Shown one piece after another: positions 9,922-59,692 of a stretch of DNA of 64,000 nucleotides. Within the stretch, counting starts at the first letter, position 1. Each line of letters starts with the position of its first letter. The stretch spans positions 30,224-94,223 of the forward strand of contig SWBL01000196.1 in NCBI GenBank assembly GCA_024195585.1, written 5' to 3'. Both the position numbers and the translations under genes were made by a program. The notes under the pieces were generated by a model. The model was given only the letters and a program-made list of their open reading frames with translations. It ran no database searches and was not told the origin of the DNA. The DNA is from Aureobasidium sp. EXF-3400 (taxonomy: Eukaryota; Ascomycota; Dothideomycetes; Dothideales; Saccotheciaceae).

Positions 9922-10587
9922 GCTTGCGATGTCTTATGTGCTGATCTGGTGTGTGTCCTTGCAGAATTGTGATGCTGAGATCTTGAAATCCTTCTCTTTC
10001 TTTTCTTTGCCCTTGAAAGTGGATTTGGTGGGTGGGATATTTGCTTCTTGAGAAATGGTCGGATCGAAGGCGTTTATGACCCCACCTTGCGATTTGAAAT
10101 GCTGATGGTTAAGGTTGTTTATCGACGTCATGTTCCCTGTGACGCTTGTCACATGCCAAAGCCATCTTGAAGAAGGCTGGCAAGGTCAACCTACAGAGTG
10201 GAGGTAGAGGAATTGGGGTGTCTCCAAGAGCGACTATGGTGTCGCGACACGGAGCTGAAGAGCGCGGCGTGAAGGAGACGCGGAGGTTCTACTAAAAGCG
10301 CCTCAGAAAATCCCCTCAAGCGACCAGCCATTGGTAGTGGGCTTGTGCATGCATTCTGAGCAACATCACGGATGCGACATGTTCGCCGATGCAGAGAAAG
10401 GAGAGAAAGGGATGATGTGCAAGGTGGAGTAGATGAATCCTTGCGCGTCTGTGTCACCACGTGTCGGCGCTTACCGTCTTGCATATCAGCAAATTGACAG
10501 ATTGCCATCTGCAATCGCCAATGTGATACGTTCTTCTTCAGCCCCCGGTTCAGAAACCAGAGTCGAAACTGATGAAAAAGTAGATGA
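9922..10587. other. Intergenic between the redox gene and U2 snRNA
   Basis: Promoter region of the peroxiredoxin-like gene and the 3' flank of U2. Open frames here (9934-10152, 10191-10646) have no domain and the second runs into U2. Confidence 0.45.
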
Positions 10588-10763
10588 TTCGCGTCAGCCT
10601 GCAGAAGTGCAAGACAGGCGACACTGTGCCAGGAGATATAATGCATGCATTAGAGATCTCCCAGCTAGTTCCAAAGACTGGGTTCAACATAAAGATATCT
10701 TAGTGGTTAAACATAAGAAGAACAGATACTACACTTGATCTAAGCCTACTGGCGAGAGAACAT
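10588..10763 (-). ncRNA. U2 spliceosomal snRNA
   Basis: Read on the minus strand, the RNA begins near 10763 with a GCC-AGTA-GGC stem I and then carries the near-universal U2 block TTAGATCAAGTGTAGTATCT, including the branch-site recognition sequence GTAGTA at 10732-10727. Stem IIa follows as TCTTA/TAAGA around a TGTTTAACCAC loop. The Sm-site position reads AGTCTTTGGAACTAG, a degenerate form of the usual run of U followed by GGA. Stem III is GGAGAT/ATCTCC around a self-complementary TAATGCATGCATTA, and stem IV is GCCTG/CAGGC with a loop containing TTGCAC, the U2B''-type loop. U2 base-pairs with the intron branch site during splicing. The 5' end is set by stem I and the TATA spacing, and the 3' end by the close of stem IV; both are good to a few nt. 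Confidence 0.93.
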
Positions 10764-42264: not shown

Positions 42265-42293
42265 CCAATTGCTTGGTGAAAATTTTATCTGAT
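42265..42293. promoter_or_regulatory. Candidate CBC-HapX element abutting a SreA GATA site
   Basis: CCAAT at 42265-42269, twelve bases, then ATT at 42282-42284 fits the CSAAT-N12-RWT pattern reported for the CCAAT-binding complex with HapX. TTATCTGAT at 42285-42293 follows with no gap; its complement ATCAGATAA is an exact match to the ATCWGATAA consensus of the SreA iron repressor. It lies 597 nt before the ABC ATG and 677 nt before the NRPS ATG, so it could control both. Function is inferred from motif and place. Confidence 0.6.
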
Positions 42294-46798: not shown

Positions 46799-48183
46799 GT
46801 TCAGTGGTGTCATTGCATTGTTCTTGTTATATCTTTCTATGCTACTTTTTGTATGCTTGGAACATGGATTAAATTAGCGAGGGAGTTTTTGGGGAAGAAT
46901 CAAAAGTTGCTTTAGAGTATGTCAATATCACGAAGAATGAATCCATAATCTGTATGCCACCAGCACGACTCGATGTAACATGTGTAACTGAGGCATCAGC
47001 TGAGGACATTGCCCGTCGCGAGGGCTACGAACCTCCTTGACCGTTTGCTCACACAGACCTGTACGGGTGAAGGGAGACTTGACACAATCGCTCTGATCCC
47101 AACAGAAACAGCAGATCAGCGAGTTCTGCCCGCGATATTGGCGTGGTGTCACCGTGGTGTGGTGGTGGGACATTCGATGCGAGATGGGTCTCCTCGGTCA
47201 CAGTCTGTGCACGTGTGGAAGCGGATCTGATAACTTTACTTCGGGCGCCACCGGTTCGTGCTGAGACGAGGACAGGCCCGACAGGGGGCGGGCTCCGATG
47301 ACGGCTTGTCTCGATGTGTTTATGACGAGGATTGATCTGTAGAGTGTTGCTCGAAGATCGAAAGGTACTGCTTATGTGACTTGTTTGGCTAAGAGACTGC
47401 AGTGTACGAAGTGACTAGATACAGATATCAACAGCCTTACTTTTCAAGCTGCCGAGGCAGGTCAAGAAGCTATCGTGACAACGCACAACTTTTTCTCGTT
47501 AACGACGTGGCCGGACTCGGGATCGCTTGACGCCCTGCAGCTGCAAAAGGCCCGTGGTTTGAGCGGTGGTGGTGCCCCACTGTCGTGCCCGTAGCTCGCG
47601 AATTGATCCTTGATCAGTGTGGATGATCTGATTAGACTAGTTTTCATCAGATTAGATGCAGAGTTTTTCGTGTAGCGGTTCCCACTTGGACGTTTGCCAA
47701 GGCACCACGCGGCGACCATGATGGTCTTTGGTCTCGAAAAGCTTCAAGCACTGACGGCACAAAAAAGCCAACATGACATGACCCTGCCTTGCCCTGCTCG
47801 ACCGAGCTTGCGACGAGGCAGAAAATAAGACGGTAGACATATCCAATCGACTGCTGCCAGCGACACACTCTTCTTCCGCTCGTGATCTTCTGTCTCTCCT
47901 CTTCCCTGTGTCCGTTGCAACATCTTGTCGTCATACAACAGTTTGAAGGTTGGAGATTCGCGTCCAAACCTTATTGTACGAGTAACGAACACGATTTGAC
48001 ATTCTACGTAAGTCCCTCATTCACAAGCCAGAAACACGATTTGTATTGTGTCAAATCGCGAAGAAGGCAACTCAGTCCAAGGCATATCGTTTATGCACAC
48101 CCAAGCAATCAATCGACGCGAGACGAGAAGCACTCTACACCCAGACTGACACGAGCTGAACAAAGACAACGAACGACTCTACA
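46799..48183. other. Intergenic, promoter of sidA
   Basis: 1.4 kb between the ABC gene and sidA. It contains the GATA site at 47225-47233 and two near-matches, ATCTGATTA and ATCAGATTA, around 47626-47655. Frames on both strands lack domains. Confidence 0.5.
47225..47233 (+). promoter_or_regulatory. Candidate SreA GATA site upstream of sidA
   Basis: ATCTGATAA is an exact match to ATCWGATAA, 951 nt before the sidA ATG and 427 nt after the ABC stop. Ornithine monooxygenase genes are repressed by SreA-type GATA factors when iron is sufficient, so a role here is reasonable but unproven. Confidence 0.5.
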
Positions 48184-49698
48184 ATGGCACCTCACGCCGA
48201 TACACCCGAAATGGCACTCGAGAGGGTACCAGAACGCAATGGTTCGAAATACCAGACACACCTCCAATCGACACCACAGAACGACGTACACGACGTAGTC
48301 TGCGTAGGCTTCGGTCCTGCCTCACTGGCAATCGCAGTAGCCCTCCACGATTCGACCAAGCAGACTGGCAAGCAGCAACCACAACTCAAGACACAACCCA
48401 AGGTGGCCTTCCTCGAGAGACAGGATCACTTCGCATGGCACGCAGGCATGCAGATCCCCGGCGCAAAGATGCAGATCTCGTTCATCAAGGACATGGCCAC
48501 AATGCGCAACCCTCGCAGCGAGTTCACCTTCCTCAATTACCTGCACGAGAACGACCGTCTGGTGCAGTTCACCAACCTCAGCACTTTCCTGCCCCGCCGT
48601 ATCGAATTTGAAGATTACCTACGCTGGTGCGCTGGCTGGTTCCAGAACTTGGTTTCGTACGGACAAGAGGTGGTCGATATCTCGCCTGACACCCAGGCCA
48701 ACAGCGCAGAGGGTGTGACGATATGGAACATCACATCTCGCAACATTCGCACAAACGAGCTCAGCCATCGTCGTACGAAACGCGTCGTTGTCGCTGTGGG
48801 AGGTCACCCCAGGATTCCTGAGGCCTTCCCCCAGAAGCACCCTCGTGTCATCCACTCGTCCCAATACTGGACTCTCTCTTCCCGCATCTTCCTCGACCGT
48901 AACGCTCCTCTCAAGATCGCCGTCATTGGCTCCGGTCAATCTGCTGCCGAAATCTTCATGAACCTGCCCAGCCAGTTCCCCAACTCCAAGGGCTACCTCT
49001 TGATCAGAGGTGCCGCTCTAAGGCCATCAGACGACTCGCCTTTCGTCAACGAGGTCTTTGATCCCGAACGCACCGGCGACACCTTCAACCAAGACCCTGC
49101 CATCCGCGCCGCAGCCATCAAGATGGACAAGGCCACCAACTACGGTGTCGTTCGTCTCGAGCTGCTGGAACACATGTACGATACCCTCTACACTCAACGC
49201 CTTGTCCATGGCGACGACGACGCAAACTGGCCCCAACGCCTGCTCAACCACCGCGAAGTCGAGGATGTGACAGAATTGCCCAATGACCGTGTGCGTCTCC
49301 ACATCAGAAACGACACTGCAAAGTTCAGAACCTGCAAGGCCTCTACAAACGAGTCTTTGGATGTAGATTTGGTCATGATTGCCAGTGGTTACAGAAGAGA
49401 TCATCATGAGCAGTTGCTGCAAAACGTTAGACCCATGATGCCTGGTGGTGATAAGCCTGGTCAGAAGTGGACTGTCAACCGCGAGTACAAGGTTCAGTTT
49501 GAGCAGGGTGCTGTGGCCAAGGACTCTGGTGTTTGGTTGCAGGGCTGTAATGAGGGTACCCACGGTGTAAGTTTTGCTTCTACCTTTTGGTTGTTTTGTT
49601 CTTACTGACGATTTGCTTTACAGTTGAGTGATTCTCTGCTCTCCGTTCTCGCTATCCGTGGCGGTGAGATGGTTCAGTCCATGTTTGGCAACCAGTAG
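48184..49698 (+). CDS. sidA: L-ornithine N5-monooxygenase (SidA)
   Basis: Exons 48184-49566 and 49624-49698 (phase 0, 57-nt intron, GTAAGT donor, TTTACAG acceptor) give 485 aa. It hydroxylates the side-chain amine of L-ornithine with FAD, NADPH and O2, the committed first step of hydroxamate siderophore synthesis. Motifs are the FAD-binding VCVGFGPASLAIAVAL near 39-54, the family block QISFIKDMATMRNPRSEFTF near 98-117, the NADPH-binding IAVIGSGQSAAEIF near 247-260, and IASGYRRD near 397. The spliced C terminus NEGTHGLSDSLLSVLAIRGG restores the conserved ending; without splicing the protein would stop early. Family length is about 500 aa. Clustering with a ferrichrome NRPS explains its product's use. 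A GATA site upstream suggests iron repression. Confidence 0.97.
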
Positions 49699-50080
49699 AG
49701 CCTCGCCGTCTTGATATGATACCCCAGCCTCCTCGATATCCTTCTTTCCTTCACGAAGGAAGAAAATTACATGCGGTAAAAAGAAGAAAATATTAAACAA
49801 AAACACAAAAACAATCTGTAAAGTAGCGATGGCGTTTTGTTTATCATGTACAAAAGGCTTTTTGGCTATGAAGATTCTTCACTTCAATTAGATGCATATA
49901 CAACTTCATTTGCGTTATCACCTTCACTCACTTTGAGTCCACCCCTTCTACCTCCAACGTCTCTTTCTGTTTATGCAACACTTTGCCCCAAGCACGACTT
50001 GCATCAAGACACACTACACCATTACACACAAACCTGAAGTCCTTCAACGCAAACAAGCAACTCTCCAACAACTCCACAAC
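49699..50080. other. sidA 3' flank and promoter of the first array gene
   Basis: The right half (from about 49885) is similar to the sequence upstream of the second array gene (from about 50415): both have a gatgcatata TATA-like motif, a ttcactt/ttcact stretch and a CACGACTTG...CAAGACA segment, so the promoter was duplicated with the gene. Confidence 0.55.
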
Positions 50081-50380
50081 ATGACCACTGACAACAACAT
50101 TCTGGGCCTCCGCGCTCAAATTACTGGTAAGAATACAATATTCCGATAGACAACACAAGCTAACGCAAGAACAGCAAACATCAGTGCCCAGGGCATGAAC
50201 TCCACCGTTGACATCGCCACCGTCATGGTCGGTAGCAAGTGGCAGGCGATTGTCGTCGAAGATTCGAAGGCCATTTATGTTACTGAAGGGTTATTCGACA
50301 CTGTAGAAACCGCCTTGAAGGCCTTGCTCGAAGACCTCAGCACCAAGCTGTTCCAGAAGCTTGACCATCAGCTCTGGTGA
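50081..50380 (+). CDS. Array paralogue 1, small uncharacterised protein
   Basis: Exons 50081-50126 and 50175-50380 (phase 1, 48-nt intron with GTAAGA donor, GCTAAC branch and AACAG acceptor) give 83 aa. Exon 1 codes for MTTDNNILGLRAQIT, identical in protein to paralogue 2. Exon 2 begins ANISAQGM and holds the family core, WQAIVVEDSKAIYVTEG, followed by a helix DTVETALKALLEDLSTKL. No signal peptide, membrane segment or Cys pattern is seen. The next-best acceptor (50169) gives an early stop. The shared intron phase and position with seven neighbours is the main reason to call this a gene. The function is unknown. Confidence 0.75.
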
Positions 50381-50425
50381 AGAAACCTTGTGCTCTCTGA
50401 AGATCTTTCGGTTCTCTTAGATGCA

Positions 50426-50432
50426 TATAAAA
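50426..50432 (+). promoter_or_regulatory. TATA box of array paralogue 2
   Basis: TATAAAA within gatgcatataaaat, 172 nt before the ATG; the same gatgcatata context precedes paralogue 1. Confidence 0.45.
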
Positions 50433-50597
50433 TTTCGTTTGGTCACCTTCACTGGCCTTCAGTCCACTTCAGCTTCATTATTTCTTTCTCGACACGCAAG
50501 ACTCTTCCTGCTCCCAACACGACTTGACACAAGACAGCTACACCGAACACAATCAACAACTCAAATTGCTCCAACCAAAACACCACCATCTCAAAAC

Positions 50598-50895
50598 ATG
50601 ACCACTGACAACAACATCCTGGGCCTCCGCGCTCAGATTACCGGTAAGGACACAGCACTTGGAATGGACATACAAGCCCGCTGATGCATTAAAAGCGAAC
50701 ATGAACGCCTTGGGTCTGAGCCCTGCCGAACTCATCACCATCGTCAACGAGGACAAGTGGAAGGCTATCATCGTTCGGGACTCGGTGGTCATATATCGCG
50801 TCATACCCTGGTTTGACACCAAAGAGGGGGCTTTCGAACACTTGCTCGAAGATATCAGCTATAATCTGTACCTCAAGTTCCAGACACAGGTCTAG
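50598..50895 (+). CDS. Array paralogue 2, small uncharacterised protein
   Basis: Exons 50598-50643 and 50696-50895 (phase 1, 52-nt intron, GTAAGG donor, CTGAT branch, AAAAG acceptor) give 81 aa. The 46-nt first exon differs from that of paralogue 1 at three positions, all silent. Exon 2 starts ANMNALG, parallel to ANISAQG in paralogue 1, then has WKAIIVRDSVVIYRVIPW and a helix with HLLEDISYNLYLKF. The start codons of paralogues 1 and 2 are 517 nt apart, a local tandem duplication. Exon 2 has diverged far more than exon 1. The function is unknown. Confidence 0.75.
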
Positions 50896-51136
50896 TGAAG
50901 GAACATCAGACCTCCAAAATGCGTCAATTGCCATTATGGTGAAAGTGAAGGACAAACCAGGGGATCGAGATACAGCGGATGAGTCTCGCGGACTTGAAAT
51001 CATAATAATTGACTCGTACTCATTTTGTTATCAACCGCTTTACTTTCCACTCTTCAAAATCATCCTTTTCAGTCTAAACACAGCCACTATCAAAGATCGT
51101 CTACATCATTACGCACACTCTTACCAAACACACACA

Positions 51137-51715
51137 ATGAATCTGTCTACCCAACTGGCCTTTCGGCCCCGACACTCCAATGCCCCCACCTCCTCCACCG
51201 CCATGAACACCAGTCTAGCACCACCATACCAGCTACCAAATTCATCCGAAGCCAGCGCAGAAGACCTCCTTGACGACCTCCGCGGCCAAATCTTCGGTAT
51301 CTGCACCTCTGCCTCACCCCTAGAGTTTCGCCCCTAGAGCCACTCTTCATCCTTGATGCCTTCACAGCCAAGCTAACACCTTCACTCAGTTCAACTCTCA
51401 GTCATGGGGGTATGGGCACCATCGATCCATACAGATTGCGTCGTCGAATTCTACTATACCTGCGTCCTTGACGGCAATGGAAAGCTCGCGTATTCAAGTC
51501 TGGCGCAAAACAGTGCTGAGGAGAGTTTGAGGTCTGTGTTGGAGCTTGTGAGAGGGGATGCGGAGACTATGAGGGGTGAGAGGGAAGTGAGTGGGGAAGA
51601 CATGGATGATGAGACAGAAGATGATGATGATGAAAACGAGGGAAAGGAAGAAGACGATGATTACGAAGAGAACGAGAACGACGACTACGTGGATGCTGAG
51701 ATGGATATGGATTGA
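51137..51715 (+). CDS. Array paralogue 3, diverged, acidic tail
   Basis: Exons 51137-51296 and 51390-51715 (phase 1, 93-nt intron with GTATCT donor, GCTAAC branch and CACTCAG acceptor; a second AG 12 nt on is also in frame) give 161 aa. Exon 1 is longer than in the sister genes (a Ser/Pro-rich N terminus) but ends in DLLDDLRGQIFG, the family's exon-1 signature. Exon 2 keeps the strand-then-helix layout (VEFYYTCVLDGNGKLAYSSL, then EESLRSVLELVRG), but the core Trp is replaced by Tyr. It adds a tail of about 40 residues that is almost entirely Asp, Glu and Asn. The weak donor and long intron make this the least certain member. Confidence 0.55.
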
Positions 51716-51967
51716 ACTTGATGGTATTTCTGGTTCCCGCAGGACGAAAAGGAGAGCTACTATTACGATCCGAAACCGATGAGTGCTCAATTGCAATGCT
51801 CATTGACCAAAGCTTTGCTCCTCCAATTCCATTCCACTGAGTACGGGCACAAGACTGCGAGATTGTTTGTTGCTGTGACTGCTGAGCTTGTTGTTGGGCT
51901 TGATGTAGGCTATACAAAAGTGAGTGTAAGCCTCTAGACATGATCCAATCGATAAAAACGTACCAGA

Positions 51968-52410
51968 TCAGATGTACTCGACACCGCCCTTAACGAGGGA
52001 TGCGGTTGCCTTAGTCTCCTTCTTCCACTCCTCCAGCTCAACCTTCATCTTGGCCGAAGTCAAGCGCAACAGCTTGCGCATAGCAGCAACCACGGTCTCA
52101 GTGCCTTCAGTAGTGGCGAAGATGACGTGGTTACGATCGTTCCAGACAGCGGCTTTCCAGGTGCCTTCAGTCTTGTCACTAGCATCCTTGTTCTTCTCGA
52201 AGGCGGAAGTGATGAAGAAGCTTTCCATGCTGCCGGATCTGATGATTTGAAGGTTGGCTGTATACATTTAGTTCTGGGTTCACTGTCTTGAGTATGGGAT
52301 GGGTGCGTACAGATGATCTGGTTCTGGATAGCAGTCATGTTGAACTCAGCGTCAGGGTCGATGAACTTCTTGACGTTAGAGGCCATGGTGTTGTTGGTGG
52401 TAGGGGCCAT
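51968..52410 (-). CDS. Array paralogue 4, small uncharacterised protein
   Basis: Exons complement(52311-52410) and complement(51968-52257) (phase 1, 53-nt intron, GTACGC donor, TATACAG acceptor) give 129 aa. Exon 1 ends FNMTAIQNQII, the counterpart of LRAQITG. Exon 2 reads SNLQIIRSG, then the core TWKAAVWNDRNHVIFATTEG and helix VVAAMRKLLRLTSAKMKVEL, and ends KGGVEYI. It and paralogue 5 are the only members on the minus strand, share an AAVW core, and are longer at the C terminus (EEWKKETK/EEWEGLNK), so they form a sub-group. MASNV at 52386 is an alternative start. The function is unknown. Confidence 0.75.
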
Positions 52411-52623
52411 GGTATCGTGGTGATGAGGCGATGTGGTGTTGTGGTTGTGGTTTTGGTTGTTGTGTTATGTTCTTGACCGCGTAGGTATGTTTTGAAGAGA
52501 GTGTGTGATTTTATGCTTGGAGGACGGAATTTTCGAGCATTGACGTGGTGAAGGAAAAGGGGTCTGTGATAAGTGAACCGCGAACTGAAAGTGAGCAAGT
52601 GAATGTTCAAGTCTCGAGCGGTA

Positions 52624-53148
52624 TTCTACACAGGATCAGTTAGTGAGTCTCCCAAATTCGACTTATTCAACGCGGACTTACAGAACGAGATGTACTCGGT
52701 ACCATTGATAGTGGTTCTTGCGAACTGCTTGTTTAAGCCCTCCCACTCCTCCTCCATGGCAACGATACCAGCAGAAGTCATCCTCAACAGACCACGCATA
52801 GCTGCAACCACATCTACGCCACCTCTATGACGAAAGACGACTCTGTTCCTGTCATCCCAAACAGCCGCAGACCAAGTCCCATTGATTGTTTGGAGCGTAG
52901 TACCATGTTCCTTGAAGCCAGAGGTGATGGTAGGGTTCTCAATTTCGGGCTTGAGAATGCGAAGGTTGTCTATAAATCATCAGCTCTGTTGACCCTTGTC
53001 TCCAAAGACTGTGTGAGTGCGTACACAAGATCTGGTTGTGGATAGCCAGGATATCCACTTCCTTGAGATAGGTGATCATGGTGTGGTGTGAAGAAGGCTC
53101 GGGGAGGCTATCACTGATGCTGTCACTAGTCTCTGTTGGCGAGGACAT
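52624..53148 (-). CDS. Array paralogue 5, stop codon split by a second intron
   Basis: Exons complement(53025-53148), complement(52682-52969) and complement(52624-52625) give 137 aa. The first intron (55 nt, GTACGC donor, TTATAG acceptor) is at the family position in phase 1. A second canonical intron (56 nt, GTAAGT donor, ACTAAC branch, TGTGTAG acceptor) starts right after the family's C-terminal GTEYISF and leaves T, which with AA of the next exon makes TAA. If it is not spliced, the frame runs on about 17 codons and stops at 52626. The core is TWSAAVWDDRNRVVFRHRG, then VVAAMRGLLRMTSAGIVAM. Exon 1 codes a Ser-rich N terminus, then VDILAIHNQIL. Confidence 0.7.
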
Positions 53149-53857
53149 AGTTTTTGAGATCCCAAATCAGGGAAGGAAAGAGTCGAAGCTTTCTGAGGAA
53201 AGTGTTTGAAGTGGATGCTCAAACCTTGAGGCGGTTTGTATATTTCTGAAGATTTCTGTCATCTTCTGGCCTGATCGAACTTGATAAAGAATCTGAATGG
53301 AGACGGATGGATATGAAGCTACGTATACTGCTTTACAACTGCATCATCTTCCTGTTACTACACAGTTTGATAGAAATCTCTGTGCAATCCCATATATTCT
53401 GGATTATATGGTATAGCTTCATCAAACTAGCACGTCTGCCGTGCCTGAACTCCTCCCATTGAATGCCTGTAGCACATCGATAAAGAAATCTGTCTACAAT
53501 GCAAACATTTGCGAATTTTCATGAGTTTGGTGCACTTGGAATTTGCTGGAAAGCAAACAGGAAATCAGATCAGTGCTTCAGCTCTTAGGACTCAGACTCT
53601 TTGAGTGCATTGTAGACGTCTCAATTCTCGATCAAAGGCTCATGAAAGAAGTTTCATCTGTCTTTAAAGCCAGGCGGACGTGAGCATGATGATCGATACG
53701 ACAATGATACTCTCACTCCATTACCTCTCATCCCTTCTTTGCAGGTCTAAAGCAAACTTCAGACTCTCAACGTCAATGTCTATATCATTCAGCCATCAGC
53801 CTGAGCATTTACCGCTGACTAGTGTCAACATTCAAAACACACCGGTCAAGCATCAAA
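53149..53857. other. Intergenic inside the array
   Basis: AT-rich sequence separating the divergent paralogues 5 and 6. Its right end (about 53750-53800) resembles the promoter of paralogue 7, with actctcaacgtcaatgtcta against actttcagcatcaatatcta. I found no further array member. Confidence 0.45.
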
Positions 53858-54353
53858 ATGATATCTGGTCAAGCCAAAGAGCCCACCTGCAATGAGCTTC
53901 GTACCCAAATCCTAGGTAACTATTCAAGAGCATAAAAGCTGAACCCCACTGACTCAACCAGAAAATTTTCGCCTTCTCGGAACTAAAGACCAAGATGCGA
54001 TTCTCACCACTGCCTGCAACCCTCAAGGCTGGACCGCCATCGTTTTCAGCGACATTGGCCATCCCATCTGCTCTACCTATGGAGACGACTCAACCATGTT
54101 GGCCGCTCTGCGGAACATGCTCAAACATAGTTCTATACATGTCAATGGCTACTTAGAGAAATATGTGGCAGAAAACAATCCACGAGAGACAAAGACCTTG
54201 GCTGGTGTCGACTACAGTCAGTCATACCCGATGGATCAATCTGCAGAATATGCTGATCAAGTTCACAGTTCTTTAAAGTGGTATATCGTGCCACAAACAA
54301 TTATGGTGCTGCGAAAACGACTGTTGTTGACGAGATGGATATCAGACATTTGA
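53858..54353 (+). CDS. Array paralogue 6, small uncharacterised protein
   Basis: Exons 53858-53915 and 53962-54353 (phase 1, 46-nt intron, GTAACT donor, CTGAC branch, AACCAG acceptor) give 149 aa. Exon 1 ends CNELRTQILG. Exon 2 starts ENFRLLGTKDQDAILTTA, then the core GWTAIVFSDIGHPICSTYG and helix TMLAALRNMLKHSSIHV, then LAGVDYSQS, as in paralogue 7 (EAGVDYEQS, where the protein ends). The remaining 47 residues after that point have no counterpart in the sister genes and may be read-through after loss of the ancestral stop or an unrecognised intron. Confidence 0.7.
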
Positions 54354-54659
54354 GGTCATAAAAGATTGAGAGAATGCCAGAATGAGAACGACAAGCGGAG
54401 CATAAGTCACAATCAGAGGCTTGTAGAGGAATCAACGTTGAATTTGAAAATTGATTGGGTGTGATCATGGTGGTTGATAGTAATGAACTCAATTAGGTTA
54501 TTACTCACTCCATTGTTCGCGCTTTCCTCTTCCACATGACAAGCGAATCCCAAACTTTCAGCATCAATATCTATATAAACTCACCCTTTTGCAGAACTTT
54601 TCTATCCTCCACACCAAACCCACACCATATTCAAACAATAACCCCCAAGCCTAAGAACC
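54354..54659. other. Intergenic with promoter of paralogue 7
   Basis: Contains TATATAAA at 54572-54579, 81 nt before the ATG, in a context similar to that upstream of paralogue 6. Nothing else is seen. Confidence 0.45.
54572..54579 (+). promoter_or_regulatory. TATA box of array paralogue 7
   Basis: TATATAAA within atctatataaactc; the matching place before paralogue 6 reads gtctatatcattc. Confidence 0.5.
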
Positions 54660-55041
54660 ATGTCCGAACAACTCGAAGAAACCGCCATCCTAGGCCTCCG
54701 CACTCAAATCCTTGGTAAGTATCCGACTATATCGAAGACGAACATCACTAACATCCTTCTGTCTTCAGCCAGACAACTTCCGCCACATCAATCACGGCAC
54801 CAACGAACCTGTCCTCGCAACTGCCTACCAGTCTGAGGGCTGGATTGCGATCATCTTCGATAAGACTGGCTTTCCCATGTACTCCAGTCGTGGAGGCGAC
54901 GACACTGCGGTAGATGCTTTGCGCAACTTGCTCAAGTATCTTTCAGAGAAGATCGGTGACTACTTCGTCGTTGAGTACCTGGAAAATGTTGGAAGTCATG
55001 ATGATAAAACCGAGGCCGGGGTTGACTACGAGCAAAGTTAG
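54660..55041 (+). CDS. Array paralogue 7, small uncharacterised protein
   Basis: Exons 54660-54714 and 54773-55041 (phase 1, 58-nt intron, GTAAGT donor, ACTAAC branch; acceptor CCAG, since the AG four bases earlier leads to an early stop) give 107 aa. Exon 1 is MSEQLEETAILGLRTQIL. Exon 2 starts DNFRHINHG, then EPVLATAYQ, the core GWIAIIFDKTGFPMYSSRG, and helix DTAVDALRNLLKYLSEKI, ending EAGVDYEQS. This member and paralogue 8 show the family pattern most cleanly: three or four short strands followed by one amphipathic helix. No targeting signal is seen. The function is unknown. Confidence 0.8.
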
Positions 55042-55723
55042 TTGTACCCGATATGAGAGACCGAGATTTCATATGCTTACCAGTGCCTAGTGAATTAGAG
55101 CGTGCGCTGTGCCAAATAGTCACTTCCAGGACAATGGCTGTTGATGAGAATGGATATCACAAGATTGACAAGATGACTGAAGGAAAACTACAGAAAGAGA
55201 ATGACAGGCGAAGAACGGCAGGATTCAGGGGTAACTAAAAACGAATTGAATCTTCTCAAACATCTAAATTCCTCTTACATTCCTGCCTTCAAATCTAATC
55301 CACTACTGCCTTCATTTGAGCGTTGTTCTTATCTCCATAGCCTTCCTGTGCAAATACTTCTGTGCTTCTTCATCATCAACACATGCTCACTCATCCATGC
55401 AGAAACCTAACCACCTTCATTTATCTAGCACTTTCCCTCTGGGAAGCATTTTGTCCTTCCAACTCTCGCATCATATTATAGGGGTCGAACATGGTATCTA
55501 GCTCTTACCAATGGATTCTGTATGAAAGAAAGTTCTAGAGTACGTGATATGGAGTGGTGATCAGAAATGGAAATCCTTGATCACTCACTTCACTGGTTTC
55601 GAGTGACTACCTTATCACACGCTGAGTGAACATCAAACTCCCACCACCAGACGAAACCTCCTTGGTTTCTCCATCTTCAAACTCAACACCACACTCGACC
55701 TTCAACTTACAAGCACAAGAACC
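55042..55723. other. Intergenic with duplicated 3' flank
   Basis: Sequence at about 55109-55180, downstream of paralogue 7, resembles 56175-56248 downstream of paralogue 8 (both contain a GGCTGT...GATGAG...CACAAGATTGA / TTACAAGATTGA series), so the copied unit extended past the stop codon. No extra gene is seen. Confidence 0.5.
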
Positions 55724-56063
55724 ATGTCTACTACATCTAAAGTACCCACTACTGATGAGGCCGCTATCATGGGCCTCCGCGCTCAGATCCTTGGTAGGCT
55801 TTCCACCCTATCCAAAATGGGCGCGACTGATCAAGAAAGACAACATCCGCGTCATTAAGTCCGCCGTTCCAGAGCCCATTCTTACTACTTTCTACGATTC
55901 TACCAAGGGCTGGGGTGCCGTCATCTTCGATGGCCGTCAGGGTTTTCCTATCTACTCTACTCTCGGATCCGATACAACTATGGTCGCTGCTCTGCGCGAA
56001 ATGCTCCAGTACACTTCTGAGAAGATCCTTGCCCGCGTCAAGCAGGACGGTGGATTGATCTAA
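55724..56063 (+). CDS. Array paralogue 8, small uncharacterised protein
   Basis: Exons 55724-55793 and 55840-56063 (phase 1, 46-nt intron, GTAGGC donor, CTGAT branch, AAAG acceptor) give 97 aa. The start is in good context (aaccATGTC). Exon 1 ends AAIMGLRAQIL, with nucleotides very close to those of paralogues 1 and 2. Exon 2 starts DNIRVIKSA, then EPILTTFYD, the core GWGAVIFDGRQGFPIYSTLG and helix TMVAALREMLQYTSEKILAR. It is the rightmost member found. The function is unknown. Confidence 0.8.
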
Positions 56064-56605
56064 GCTAAAAAGAGAACCCATCTCAACTAGTTTCGAAAAC
56101 AAAGTCAGCCTATCCTAATCGATCGCATTCCATTTATTTACTAATTGACTTGTAGTGAGCTGAAATGCTGAAACAGTGCAAAGGACAGTCACAGTCCTTC
56201 GGCAACGGCTGTGAACATAGATGAGCATTACAAGATTGAGGAATGACAAGAAGAGAATGGCAAGGAGGGCATGACAAGAAGGGCACCACAAGAGCAGTAC
56301 AAGGGAAGGCAAGAGACATACCAATGCATCGGTGTTCCTGCCTAACAACCAAACTTGCACCACACTTCTGCTTTCATATTCTGTCCACTACTGTGTTGCT
56401 TCTTCGTTCCTTCTTTACGCGTGCCTCGTTCACTGTCACCAAGCAATAATCCAGAAACAGATGAATCCCGCTGTTCCTATACACAAACTCGTGTCAAAAG
56501 GTCGATCAAAGAGCAGAGAAGAAATGAAAGATGAAAATGTATACACAAGAAAAGAACCTTATCCACAATCACCCTTTACACAAGCCCAGCCCTAGCCAAG
56601 TCTAC
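56064..56605. other. Intergenic between the array and the metallopeptidase
   Basis: 3' flanks of convergent genes, including the copy of the 3' flank repeat at about 56175-56248 and purine-rich sequence around 56240-56310. No gene is supported. Confidence 0.5.
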
Positions 56606-59401
56606 CTATGCAACCAACTTCTCGGCAGCCTGCCTCAATATCCTCGCCGCACGCAAGAGTTGTCCCTGTGCATCCATCCATCTTCCCTCTTGCATCGCAT
56701 CCCTCACAGCCGGCAAATAAGCAGCCGCATACCCATCCCAGAGCTGTGGGCCGAAAAGAACATGTTTGTATTGTTCTCTACCAGGGACCTGTTTCAATTA
56801 TGTTAGTACGTTGCTCAAATCTGCAAGGGTGAATCGAAGGGCAGAGAGGAGAATAGGAAGAAGGGAAGGAGGAAGGACAGGGGATGAGGGGATGAGGGGA
56901 TGAGGGGAAAAACTTACACCATAAGGCCCAGCCTCCCCAGTAGTCGGCAAATCCAAAAGATCGGTTTCGAAATCAGCAACGCGGGCATTGTGTTCAATGC
57001 GCTTTAAAGCATACGCATTGGTTTCGAAGCCTCCACTGCCTGCAAGTACTTTACTAGCCCACATCTCATCAAACTCATGGAACTCTTTAGCTTTAGCCAC
57101 GAAAACATCCACTGCATCCCGTAAAGGCTGCACACTAAATATCGTAGTATGAAGATCGACTTTCAATTTCTCAGCAGTGGTTTTGGCGTCTTTCTCAAGG
57201 TCGTCGATGATGGGGAACATGGCGGCGGCGTAGTCGTTCAGGTCGAAGGGTATAATAGGTCGATCGGCGATTTCGAGGATCAGCAGTGCCCATACTGTGG
57301 CGAGTGTTTTGTGGTATTGGAATTCTGGGTCTCCGTATTTGGTCATCCATTCGTAGGTTTCGTAGCAAGAGTGGTAGGGATATCCTTTTTCGCCATCCTC
57401 GCTTTCGAAGCCAAAATCGAGGGATGAGGTGCCGGACATGTATTGGAAAGGCACGTAGTCGGATCCAGCACCCAAGCCTTCGATTTGTTGGTTTCGCTCG
57501 TCGTAGAGTTGGCGTAGTGTGATGTTTTTGTACGGATCGGTGACGCGGTCGAGAACGTGCATGAGAGCTTTCTTGTATAGCGGCGATCCAGAAACTCTGA
57601 AATTCGGGCCAGAAACACCTACATCGACGTTGAGGTATCCAACGCCGTTTCCACGCAGATAATCCATGTTATCCTCGACGAACTCAGTAGAACCGACGAA
57701 ATTGTATTCCTCGGCGTCCCAAGAGACGAATTCGATGGAGCGGAGAGGACGCCAACCGAGTTTGATGAGGTCTCCAAAGATGGTGACAACCTCCATAAGG
57801 ACGGCTTGGGAACTTCCAGCATCGACACTGCCGAAACACCAGGAATCGCGGTGGGATCCAACGATCAGCTTCTTGCTTGGTGTCTCCATGCCTTGGACTA
57901 GGCCATGCACGTTCCAGATCCGTTGTTTGGCAGTTACAAAGTTGTTGTTGATGAGGCGGACTTCTGGGGAGTTTTTGTCGCCAGTCCACCATTCGACATC
58001 AGGTACGCCACCCTCCCAGTCTTCAGAGGGCACCTTTTGACCATGTCCTTTGAGAGCCATCAACAGATGTTGAGCGTCTCTCCAAGCCAAAGGTAGACTG
58101 GGTATTTGCGGCAGTCCGGTAATATTCCCATTGATGTCCGGATGTTTGGTGTCCTCGTGTGAGGCATGACCGGGTGTCAAGGGGTCTCCGATAACCAGAC
58201 TGGAAAGAGCAACAGATCCTCGTTGGACAGAGTCCCGCGGTCTCCACGGCCCATCAGGCACAACAGGACCTCTCACAAAGCCGTCCTCCTTGGGGTCCGA
58301 GTAGATGAGACAACCAGCGGCTCCAGCCATTTCAGCAGCCTTGACCTTCATTCCACGATCTGCTTCTGTATGATAGTATCGCACCAAAACGATAGCACCT
58401 TTCAGATCCACACCCATATCTTTTAGACGTTGGAAATCCTCGCGCGAGCCGCCATTGGCATAGACAAGGTGACCAGTGACGTTTCCATTCTTGGAGTAGC
58501 CGTGCCAGTTTAGTGTTTGTTGTTTCTCTCTTCCTGACTCTTTAAAGACCGACTCTTCCTCCAGCAAAGCAGTCCACTTCCTGTCTGGCGGAGAGACGAT
58601 TTCGACATTGCGACCGCCTGGTTCTGGATAGTTCATGTAGACAAAGTATTCGTGCATCCTGACATCATCCAAATTTTGAGCACGCCAATTATCTTGAACC
58701 CATTCGGCCAGAAAGAAGTCGCCTTCTGTGCCTGCGACGTGGTCGTATGAGGTGATGTATTCGAGGTATTCGGCAATGCGATTCGGTGACAATGAGGCCT
58801 GCTCTTGTACCCTCGCGCGCACGCTCTCGGGATCGTAGTGTTGGGCCATGTGACCAGCATTGGGTATTACATCGAGGGCGAAGAGGGCGTATATTAGGGC
58901 GGCGATTGTGAAGAGAGCGACTAGGCGGGCAATGACTGGCAAGCCGAGCTTGAACTCCTCGGGTACTGTAGGGAGGCGCTGGCGGAGCGATGAGAATTTT
59001 GGTATTGAGAAGCGACGGAACGAAGGAAGGTTGCTCCATGTATGTGAGAGTTTGCCGAACAGTTGACCTCGCCGCCGGCTTGTTGCTGATTCGGGCTCAA
59101 GTATTTCCATCTCCTCCATGTCTCGCCGTACTGCGGCTTCTTCATCGTCATCGCTGTCGCCGTTCACCTCTGGTAGGTATAGATCGCTGTCCTCGCTCGG
59201 GCGTGGTGACTCTGCGGTGGGAGCTTGGTATGCGCCATTACGGGCTGATTGAGTAGGTTGCCTCCCTAATAGACCTTGACGTTCTGTTTCGTCGCTTGTC
59301 TCGTTGACAGTATTCGAAGATGACGGTCGCGAAGTTGTGGCCTCTTCATAGGAAGGGATAGGTAGATGGGCATATTTCTTGTAGGGGTCCTCGCCGCTCA
59401 T
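56606..59401 (-). CDS. M28 metallopeptidase, transferrin-receptor/GCPII-like, one TM
   Basis: Exons complement(56918-59401) and complement(56606-56788), phase 0, give 888 aa from the preferred start MSGEDPYKKYAHLP; the ATG at 59461 would add 20 residues. It is a type II membrane protein: a disordered acidic cytosolic region, one membrane segment (VIARLVALFTIAALIYALFA, about 157-176), then luminal PA, M28 and dimerisation domains. Zinc site residues are visible: GSHRDSWCFGSVDAG near 514, WDAEEYNFVGSTEF near 564, NVDVG near 592 and YPYHSCYETYEW near 677, so it looks catalytically competent, like glutamate carboxypeptidase II and unlike transferrin receptor. Yeast relatives (Vps70, Tre1/Tre2) work in vacuolar and ubiquitin-linked sorting. 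Splicing restores the end VPGREQYKHVLFGPQLWDGY of the dimerisation domain. The intron is 129 nt, long for this window. Confidence 0.92.
56881..56907. repeat. GGGATGAG minisatellite inside an intron
   Basis: About three tandem copies of an 8-nt unit (gggatgag) lie next to the 5' splice site in the intron of the M28 gene, followed on the plus strand by aaaaacttac. They help explain why this intron is twice the usual length. Confidence 0.75.
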
Positions 59402-59692
59402 GGCGTCGGCGATTCGGGGGACAGGTTGAATTCGAAGGAGCGTATGCAAGCTGCTTGTCAAGTCGAGTATTGCTATGAGATCATTCTGTTGATTTTAATC
59501 CGATCCGTTCACCCCGGTTCTTTCGTCGTATAAGTGCAGTTGGGCATTGAACAGTTGGTGTGTTTCGTGGATTGGCACCTCATCACTTATCGGCCTTGGG
59601 GCCAAGATGGGGAAGGGGGTGCGTCAGCTTCCGCAATCTTCCACTCCAACGTATCTTGACTCGTATTCATCCGTATCCATTCTTATACTAAT

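Follow-up and report, generated by a model that had tools for sequence, protein, structure and literature searches.

What is encoded by the tandem array of eight small genes (g1 to g8) found in a 64,000-nucleotide stretch of the Aureobasidium sp. EXF-3400 genome (contig SWBL01000196.1, positions 30,224 to 94,223; hereafter, the window)? The original prediction saw in them an unrecognized, locally amplified gene family lying beside siderophore genes. This interpretation is partly supported by our analysis, and the function that we discuss for the family is a hypothesis. As judged from sequence, the array genes belong to a large family, as yet without a name, of about 40 two-exon genes which, instead of being local, is genome-wide, with members on ten contigs of the genome searched (53.4 Mb, 717 contigs). 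A curated alignment holds 31 of them, namely seven window genes and 24 located on contigs C6, C56, C107, C586, C122, C87 and C37. Nine further likely members, less carefully modeled, are g3, its counterpart on C122, one gene each on C302 and C10, two on C6 (at 76.7 and 97.1 kb) and three on C586. As the count of about 40 rests on the best candidates listed, the total may be higher; the iterative profile search drifted, with shared tails and read-through pieces among its lower matches, which were removed by hand.

All eight spliced models could be rebuilt, yielding proteins of 81-161 amino acids (aa) with one two-exon design, as had been claimed, and in every model an intron of 46-93 nt interrupts the frame in phase 1 at the same protein position (Table 1). 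The spliced models also confirm that the short intron hides these genes from plain open reading frame calling. These models derive from sequence and their acceptors were picked to preserve the open frame; for two loci, L056 and L065, the best acceptor in the exon-2 support test (see below) differed from that of the curated model. A CTRAY branch motif, present in 9.6% of random 37-nt stretches, was found near the acceptor in seven of the eight window introns and in 23 of 32 introns overall.

To measure support beyond chance, a profile of exon 2 alone was built from the 24 genes outside the window and scored on the window genes and on 1000 shuffles of each. For g1, g2 and g4 to g8, scores were 22.7-39.7 bits and no shuffle scored as high (the largest reached 11.1). 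The expectation that all eight proteins would beat shuffled controls therefore holds for seven genes and fails for the exon 2 of g3, which was equaled or exceeded by some of its shuffles and was likewise unsupported in a genome-wide exon-2 test of loci with the exon-1 pattern. The profile test is partly non-independent, because the 24 genes were found through their similarity to window genes and through the exon-1 pattern; despite this, its margins are wide. In a jackknife, every curated member (31/31) beat 500 shuffles. As for g3, it matches its counterpart at the same place on C122 (L029:2272-2805; 40% identity over 35 aa, E 7e-6), which itself scored 9.3 bits against the exon-2 profile, with 0 of 1000 shuffles as high.

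Genome-wide, the exon-1/donor pattern was matched 35 times, versus four times for a reversed control. Thirty of these places were taken as loci and exon 2 was supported in 21, of which 20 were already in the profile used, L065 alone being held out. The nine loci with unsupported exon 2 were L047, L050, L051, L053, L059 (which is g3), L063, L064, L066 and L067. The pattern at L050 (C66:103194) resembles that of the C107 and C302 genes, and this locus is possibly a broken third copy.

The shared exon-1 peptide was originally given as LRxQIxG. The LRxQI part of this motif stands, but its glycine does not: it appeared because exon 1 was read on into the intron. The true shared motif is LRxQI-x-x-N, which straddles the phase-1 intron in the family, including seven of the eight window genes among the 31 curated members. 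The isoleucine and the asparagine (I22 and N25 in g8 numbering) are invariant in all 31, while the leucine, arginine and glutamine vary slightly (IQNQI in g4, IHNQI in g5). After splicing, the split codon encodes A, A, V, S, Y, E, D and D in the eight window genes. In g3, the exon-1 motif (LRGQIF) and the intron are kept, but glutamine replaces the asparagine. A C-terminal G-[VT]-[DE]-Y piece is common to g4, g5, g6 and g7 (window 51968-55041).

Table 1. Positions of the array genes and of the surrounding features in the window, with the scores of the array genes against the exon-2 profile
Feature	Position	Strand	Protein and remarks	Intron	Exon-2 profile (bits)	Shuffles as high or higher
g1	50081..50380	+	83 aa	50127-50174	37.8	0/1000
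g2	50598..50895	+	81 aa	50644-50695	22.7	0/1000
g3	51137..51715	+	161 aa, acidic tail; weakest member	51297-51389	2.5	10/1000
g4	51968..52410	-	129 aa	52310-52258	32.0	0/1000
g5	52626..53148	-	155 aa as read, end uncertain	53024-52970	26.2	0/1000
g6	53858..54353	+	149 aa as read, long tail uncertain	53916-53961	39.7	0/1000
g7	54660..55041	+	107 aa	54715-54772	32.6	0/1000
g8	55724..56063	+	97 aa	55794-55839	36.7	0/1000
Left flank	48160..49698	+	L-ornithine N5-monooxygenase-like (SidA-like) gene, collinear with C122			
Hypervariable interval	49903..56599		defined by blastn against the C122 counterpart			
Right flank	56798..59494	-	M28 peptidase open frame, collinear with C122			
Siderophore locus	26714-49698		two long synthetase frames (-), divergent ABC transporter, ornithine N5-monooxygenase			

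That the family was unrecognized is borne out by the searches, which gave no significant match to any named family in Pfam or NCBIfam. With the eight proteins and the 31-member set, Pfam returned only stray single-member matches (best 0.02), and NCBIfam likewise (best 0.0022, one member). The best match of the family in a PDB profile search was an unrelated protein (E 0.57), and a protein search with g8 alone found no match. By contrast with the array type, the C37 type is known from deposited “hypothetical protein” records, which are true family members: nine proteins from several Aureobasidium species, such as KCU83_g1456 (A. melanogenum) and M436DRAFT_68007 (A. namibiae), are orthologous to the C37 member, and their annotated gene models are spliced in the same way. 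Judged by named records, the family occurs in Aureobasidium. Three database members, P0001, P0011 and P0016, have a jgi source: two of them (P0001 and P0016) are translated through the intron, the start of P0011 looks unrelated, and the name given to P0001, Xaa-Pro aminopeptidase, is apparently wrong. None of the titles and abstract openings listed in the literature searches points to the family, from which we do not claim that it is absent from print. For instance, an analysis of family expansions in four Aureobasidium genomes (PMC4227064) pursued only selected groups, and its data may include the present family without a name.

What might such proteins do? A structure model (pLDDT 81.6, pTM 0.71) has a helix at 17-37, strands at 44-50, 59-65 and 70-78, and a second helix at 81-107. 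The domain is thus predicted to be a compact alpha-beta-beta-beta-alpha unit of the class of double-stranded RNA-binding domains (dsRBDs), without their RNA-binding lysine motif. A second model, of g7 exon 2, was counted as support for the same fold, but the two are not fully independent because the g7 alignment shares rows with the first. Among the structural matches listed, 44 of 50 in one search and about 33 of 50 in another had dsRBD or HPF/YfiA titles; their scores were middling, though the predicted topology fits the dsRBD order. The nearest likeness in fold is to dsRBDs, especially those that bind protein (Staufen dsRBD5, Loquacious dsRBD3 and PACT D3), although Z scores were low. The ribosome hibernation factors HPF/YfiA/RaiA, which bind ribosomes and start with an extra strand, are also near in structure, but the family has no sequence match to them. 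Phage T7 Gp1.2, a dGTPase inhibitor, is another near candidate, but it is a phage protein, its score is weak and the PDB profile search did not match it by sequence. With Foldseek, no viral model matched at E ≤0.001 (best 3.7e-3). A HicB-like antitoxin fold, suggested by a “GDT..EAL” look, was dropped, as the model shows a first helix and the dsRBD-like order; HicB is not named among the structural matches listed, an absence that proves nothing. No signal peptide was evident, with no signal-peptide program run, and the proteins are probably intracellular.

Additional clues come from relatives outside the window that carry DNA-binding-like parts. In one counterpart pair, on C6 (L035:5772-6797) and C586 (L072:203-1180), with 68% identity, several AT-hook motifs (GRP-centered) come after the domain, ahead of a C-terminal piece resembling a winged helix. 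The Pfam AT_hook model matched three stretches of the C586 protein above the cutoff (E 6.8e-7) and fell just below it in the C6 protein (E 0.0074). A second pair (L035:4400-5521 and L072:1495-2367; 35% identity) has a similar C-terminal end without AT-hooks. For this end in the four relatives, Pfam gave only helix-turn-helix or winged-helix families, all below the cutoff (TrmB 0.02, HTH_Crp_2 0.034, MarR_2 0.095, DprA_WH 0.15), and PDB gave mixed weak matches from E 0.1, with some such regulators among other chains. Other members, such as g3 and C56_11273, have acidic tails.

From these observations, a mechanism may be proposed. By analogy with dsRBDs whose ligand is a protein instead of RNA, the domain would be a module for protein interactions, homo- or heterotypic; DNA would be bound by those members that carry AT-hooks or a winged-helix-like end; and short one-domain genes such as g1 to g8 would supply interchangeable partners or competitors that tune the DNA-binding members in the manner of microProteins, within clusters evolving through gene birth and death. 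The proposal builds on a coding family, a splice design seen at the sequence level, one AT-hook fusion and a hypervariable locus, together with a predicted fold, whereas protein binding and tuning are what we infer. Overall, we regard it as a tentative possibility that is less likely than not to be right.

The hypervariable locus itself invites a different explanation. The window is collinear with contig C122, the two being copies whose DNA is about 75-80% identical. Similarity ends at 49,902, past the ornithine monooxygenase gene (open frame 48160-49608, with a last exon read by eye), and restarts at 56,600, where the M28 peptidase gene has its 3′ end; the frame of this gene includes PA and transferrin-receptor-like dimerization domains, and a further exon probably lies at 56606-56797. 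In between, blastn (E up to 1e-3, matches over 40 nt) aligned just one stretch to C122, 48 nt long and located at exon 1 of g8, and the C122 interval contains two family genes, one of them g3-like, along with an unrelated frame of 427 aa (L029 3162-4445), coiled-coil-like and without Pfam match. Array gene content thus differs between genome copies while the flanks stay collinear. As the copies differ by 20-25% in DNA, two species-level genomes are present, in a hybrid or in a mixed culture. The A. melanogenum lineage is likely one of the two, because the C37 protein is 94% identical to the A. melanogenum record; stable, highly heterozygous hybrid diploids are reported in that species (PMC9535773).

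Within the array, g1/g2 and g7/g8 are tandem sisters (52% and 57% identity) whose repeat units, of about 520 and 1070 bp, extend into untranslated flanks. Trees support g1/g2 (97/92), g4/g5 (99/96) and a C122 gene beside g4/g5 (97/93), with lower support for a g6-g8 group (87/75); g1/g2 lie apart from g4-g8, and the array was monophyletic in none of 200 bootstrap trees. Ks was 0.61-1.09 for tandem neighbors versus 0.66 and 0.98 for the two flanking genes between genome copies, estimates that are rough near 1. The tandem pairs consequently date from roughly the time when the copies split, and local amplification as a recent event is not upheld. Ka/Ks was 0.58 for g7/g8, 0.41 for g1/g2, 0.54 for g4/g5 and 0.52 for g6/g7 and, elsewhere, 0.23 for C6_38073/C56_10264, 0.46 for C6_39059/C56_11273, 0.28 for C107_141/C302 and 0.54 for C107_135/C107_134 (C6_97792/C56_2830 was excluded, with 3 codons compared). 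All eight usable pairs are therefore below 1 but above the flanking genes (ornithine monooxygenase 0.10, M28 peptidase 0.05), as expected of coding genes under weaker constraint. Selection on the family is purifying but relaxed, and the claim that it evolves fast is sustained.

Differing content between collinear flanks and faster protein change than in those flanks would also be observed if these were conflict or recognition genes, variable at fixed sites, acting in self/non-self recognition between strains or as a selfish killer/protector set. We consider this unlikely, given that Ka/Ks is below 1 in every usable pair, that no known domain is significantly matched, and that C37-type orthologues recur in nine records from several species and occupy one place each on C37 and C10 in the present genome, a stability unlike that of pure conflict genes.

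An RNA-binding role is less probable still. If the domain were a divergent dsRBD acting in RNA silencing or in defense against fungal viruses, fast evolution and copy-number change would be explained, and the dsRBDs of Dicer, DGCR8, Rnt1 and plant DRB/HYL1 are among its structural neighbors. A feature of dsRBDs, however, is a basic KKxAK motif at the start of helix 2, and none of the 31 members has a similar one, with an average of 0.8 basic residues in the eight positions before the conserved helix-2 alanine. The domains are mostly acidic (pI <7 in 29 of 31; the other two are 7.0 and 9.3), and no Pfam dsRBD model matched any of the 31 members at E up to 0.1.

It is very improbable that the genes are decaying relics without protein product. 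Although g3 is far diverged, the ends of g5 and g6 are uncertain, the C66 locus pairs the exon-1 pattern with no supported exon 2, and two of the three additional C586 relatives have stop codons within their matched stretches (so that the gene may be broken or the match may overrun its end), open frames and splice signals are present in all eight window models, and every one of the eight usable pairs shows proportionally more synonymous than amino-acid change, with window or intact array genes involved in six.

Regarding the siderophore genes, the synthetase modules, ABC transporter and ornithine monooxygenase beside the array are real, and nothing beyond position ties the array to iron. Two exact sites of the iron-regulator GATA motif ATCWGATAA occur in the window, at 42285 (between siderophore synthetase and ABC transporter) and 47225 (upstream of ornithine monooxygenase), and none within the array; as 0.99 are expected by chance and 22 of 100 shuffles give at least two, their placement is weak evidence either way. 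That the array genes are accessory to iron or siderophore metabolism is hardly credible: they adjoin these genes, and two family genes occupy the corresponding site in the other genome copy, but about 32 of about 40 members are located elsewhere and, more weakly, the array has no exact site. Elsewhere in the window, a U2 spliceosomal RNA gene lies at 10583-10763 on the - strand (99 bits).

In sum, a domain absent from Pfam and NCBIfam, and hidden by a short intron, is common to about forty genes in a single fungal genome. Now that the family is delimited, its fold predicted and a hypervariable locus compared between the two genome copies, its function, expression and turnover become directly testable. 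In the boldest form of the interaction-module proposal, which we regard as distinctly improbable, Aureobasidium would have a nuclear regulatory system of its own, in which a new interaction domain is present in AT-hook/winged-helix proteins and in dozens of “microProteins”, with partner sets particular to each genome copy. If so, the hypervariable arrays would give each hybrid parent its own partner set, and this could shape which genomes are able to function together in stable hybrids.

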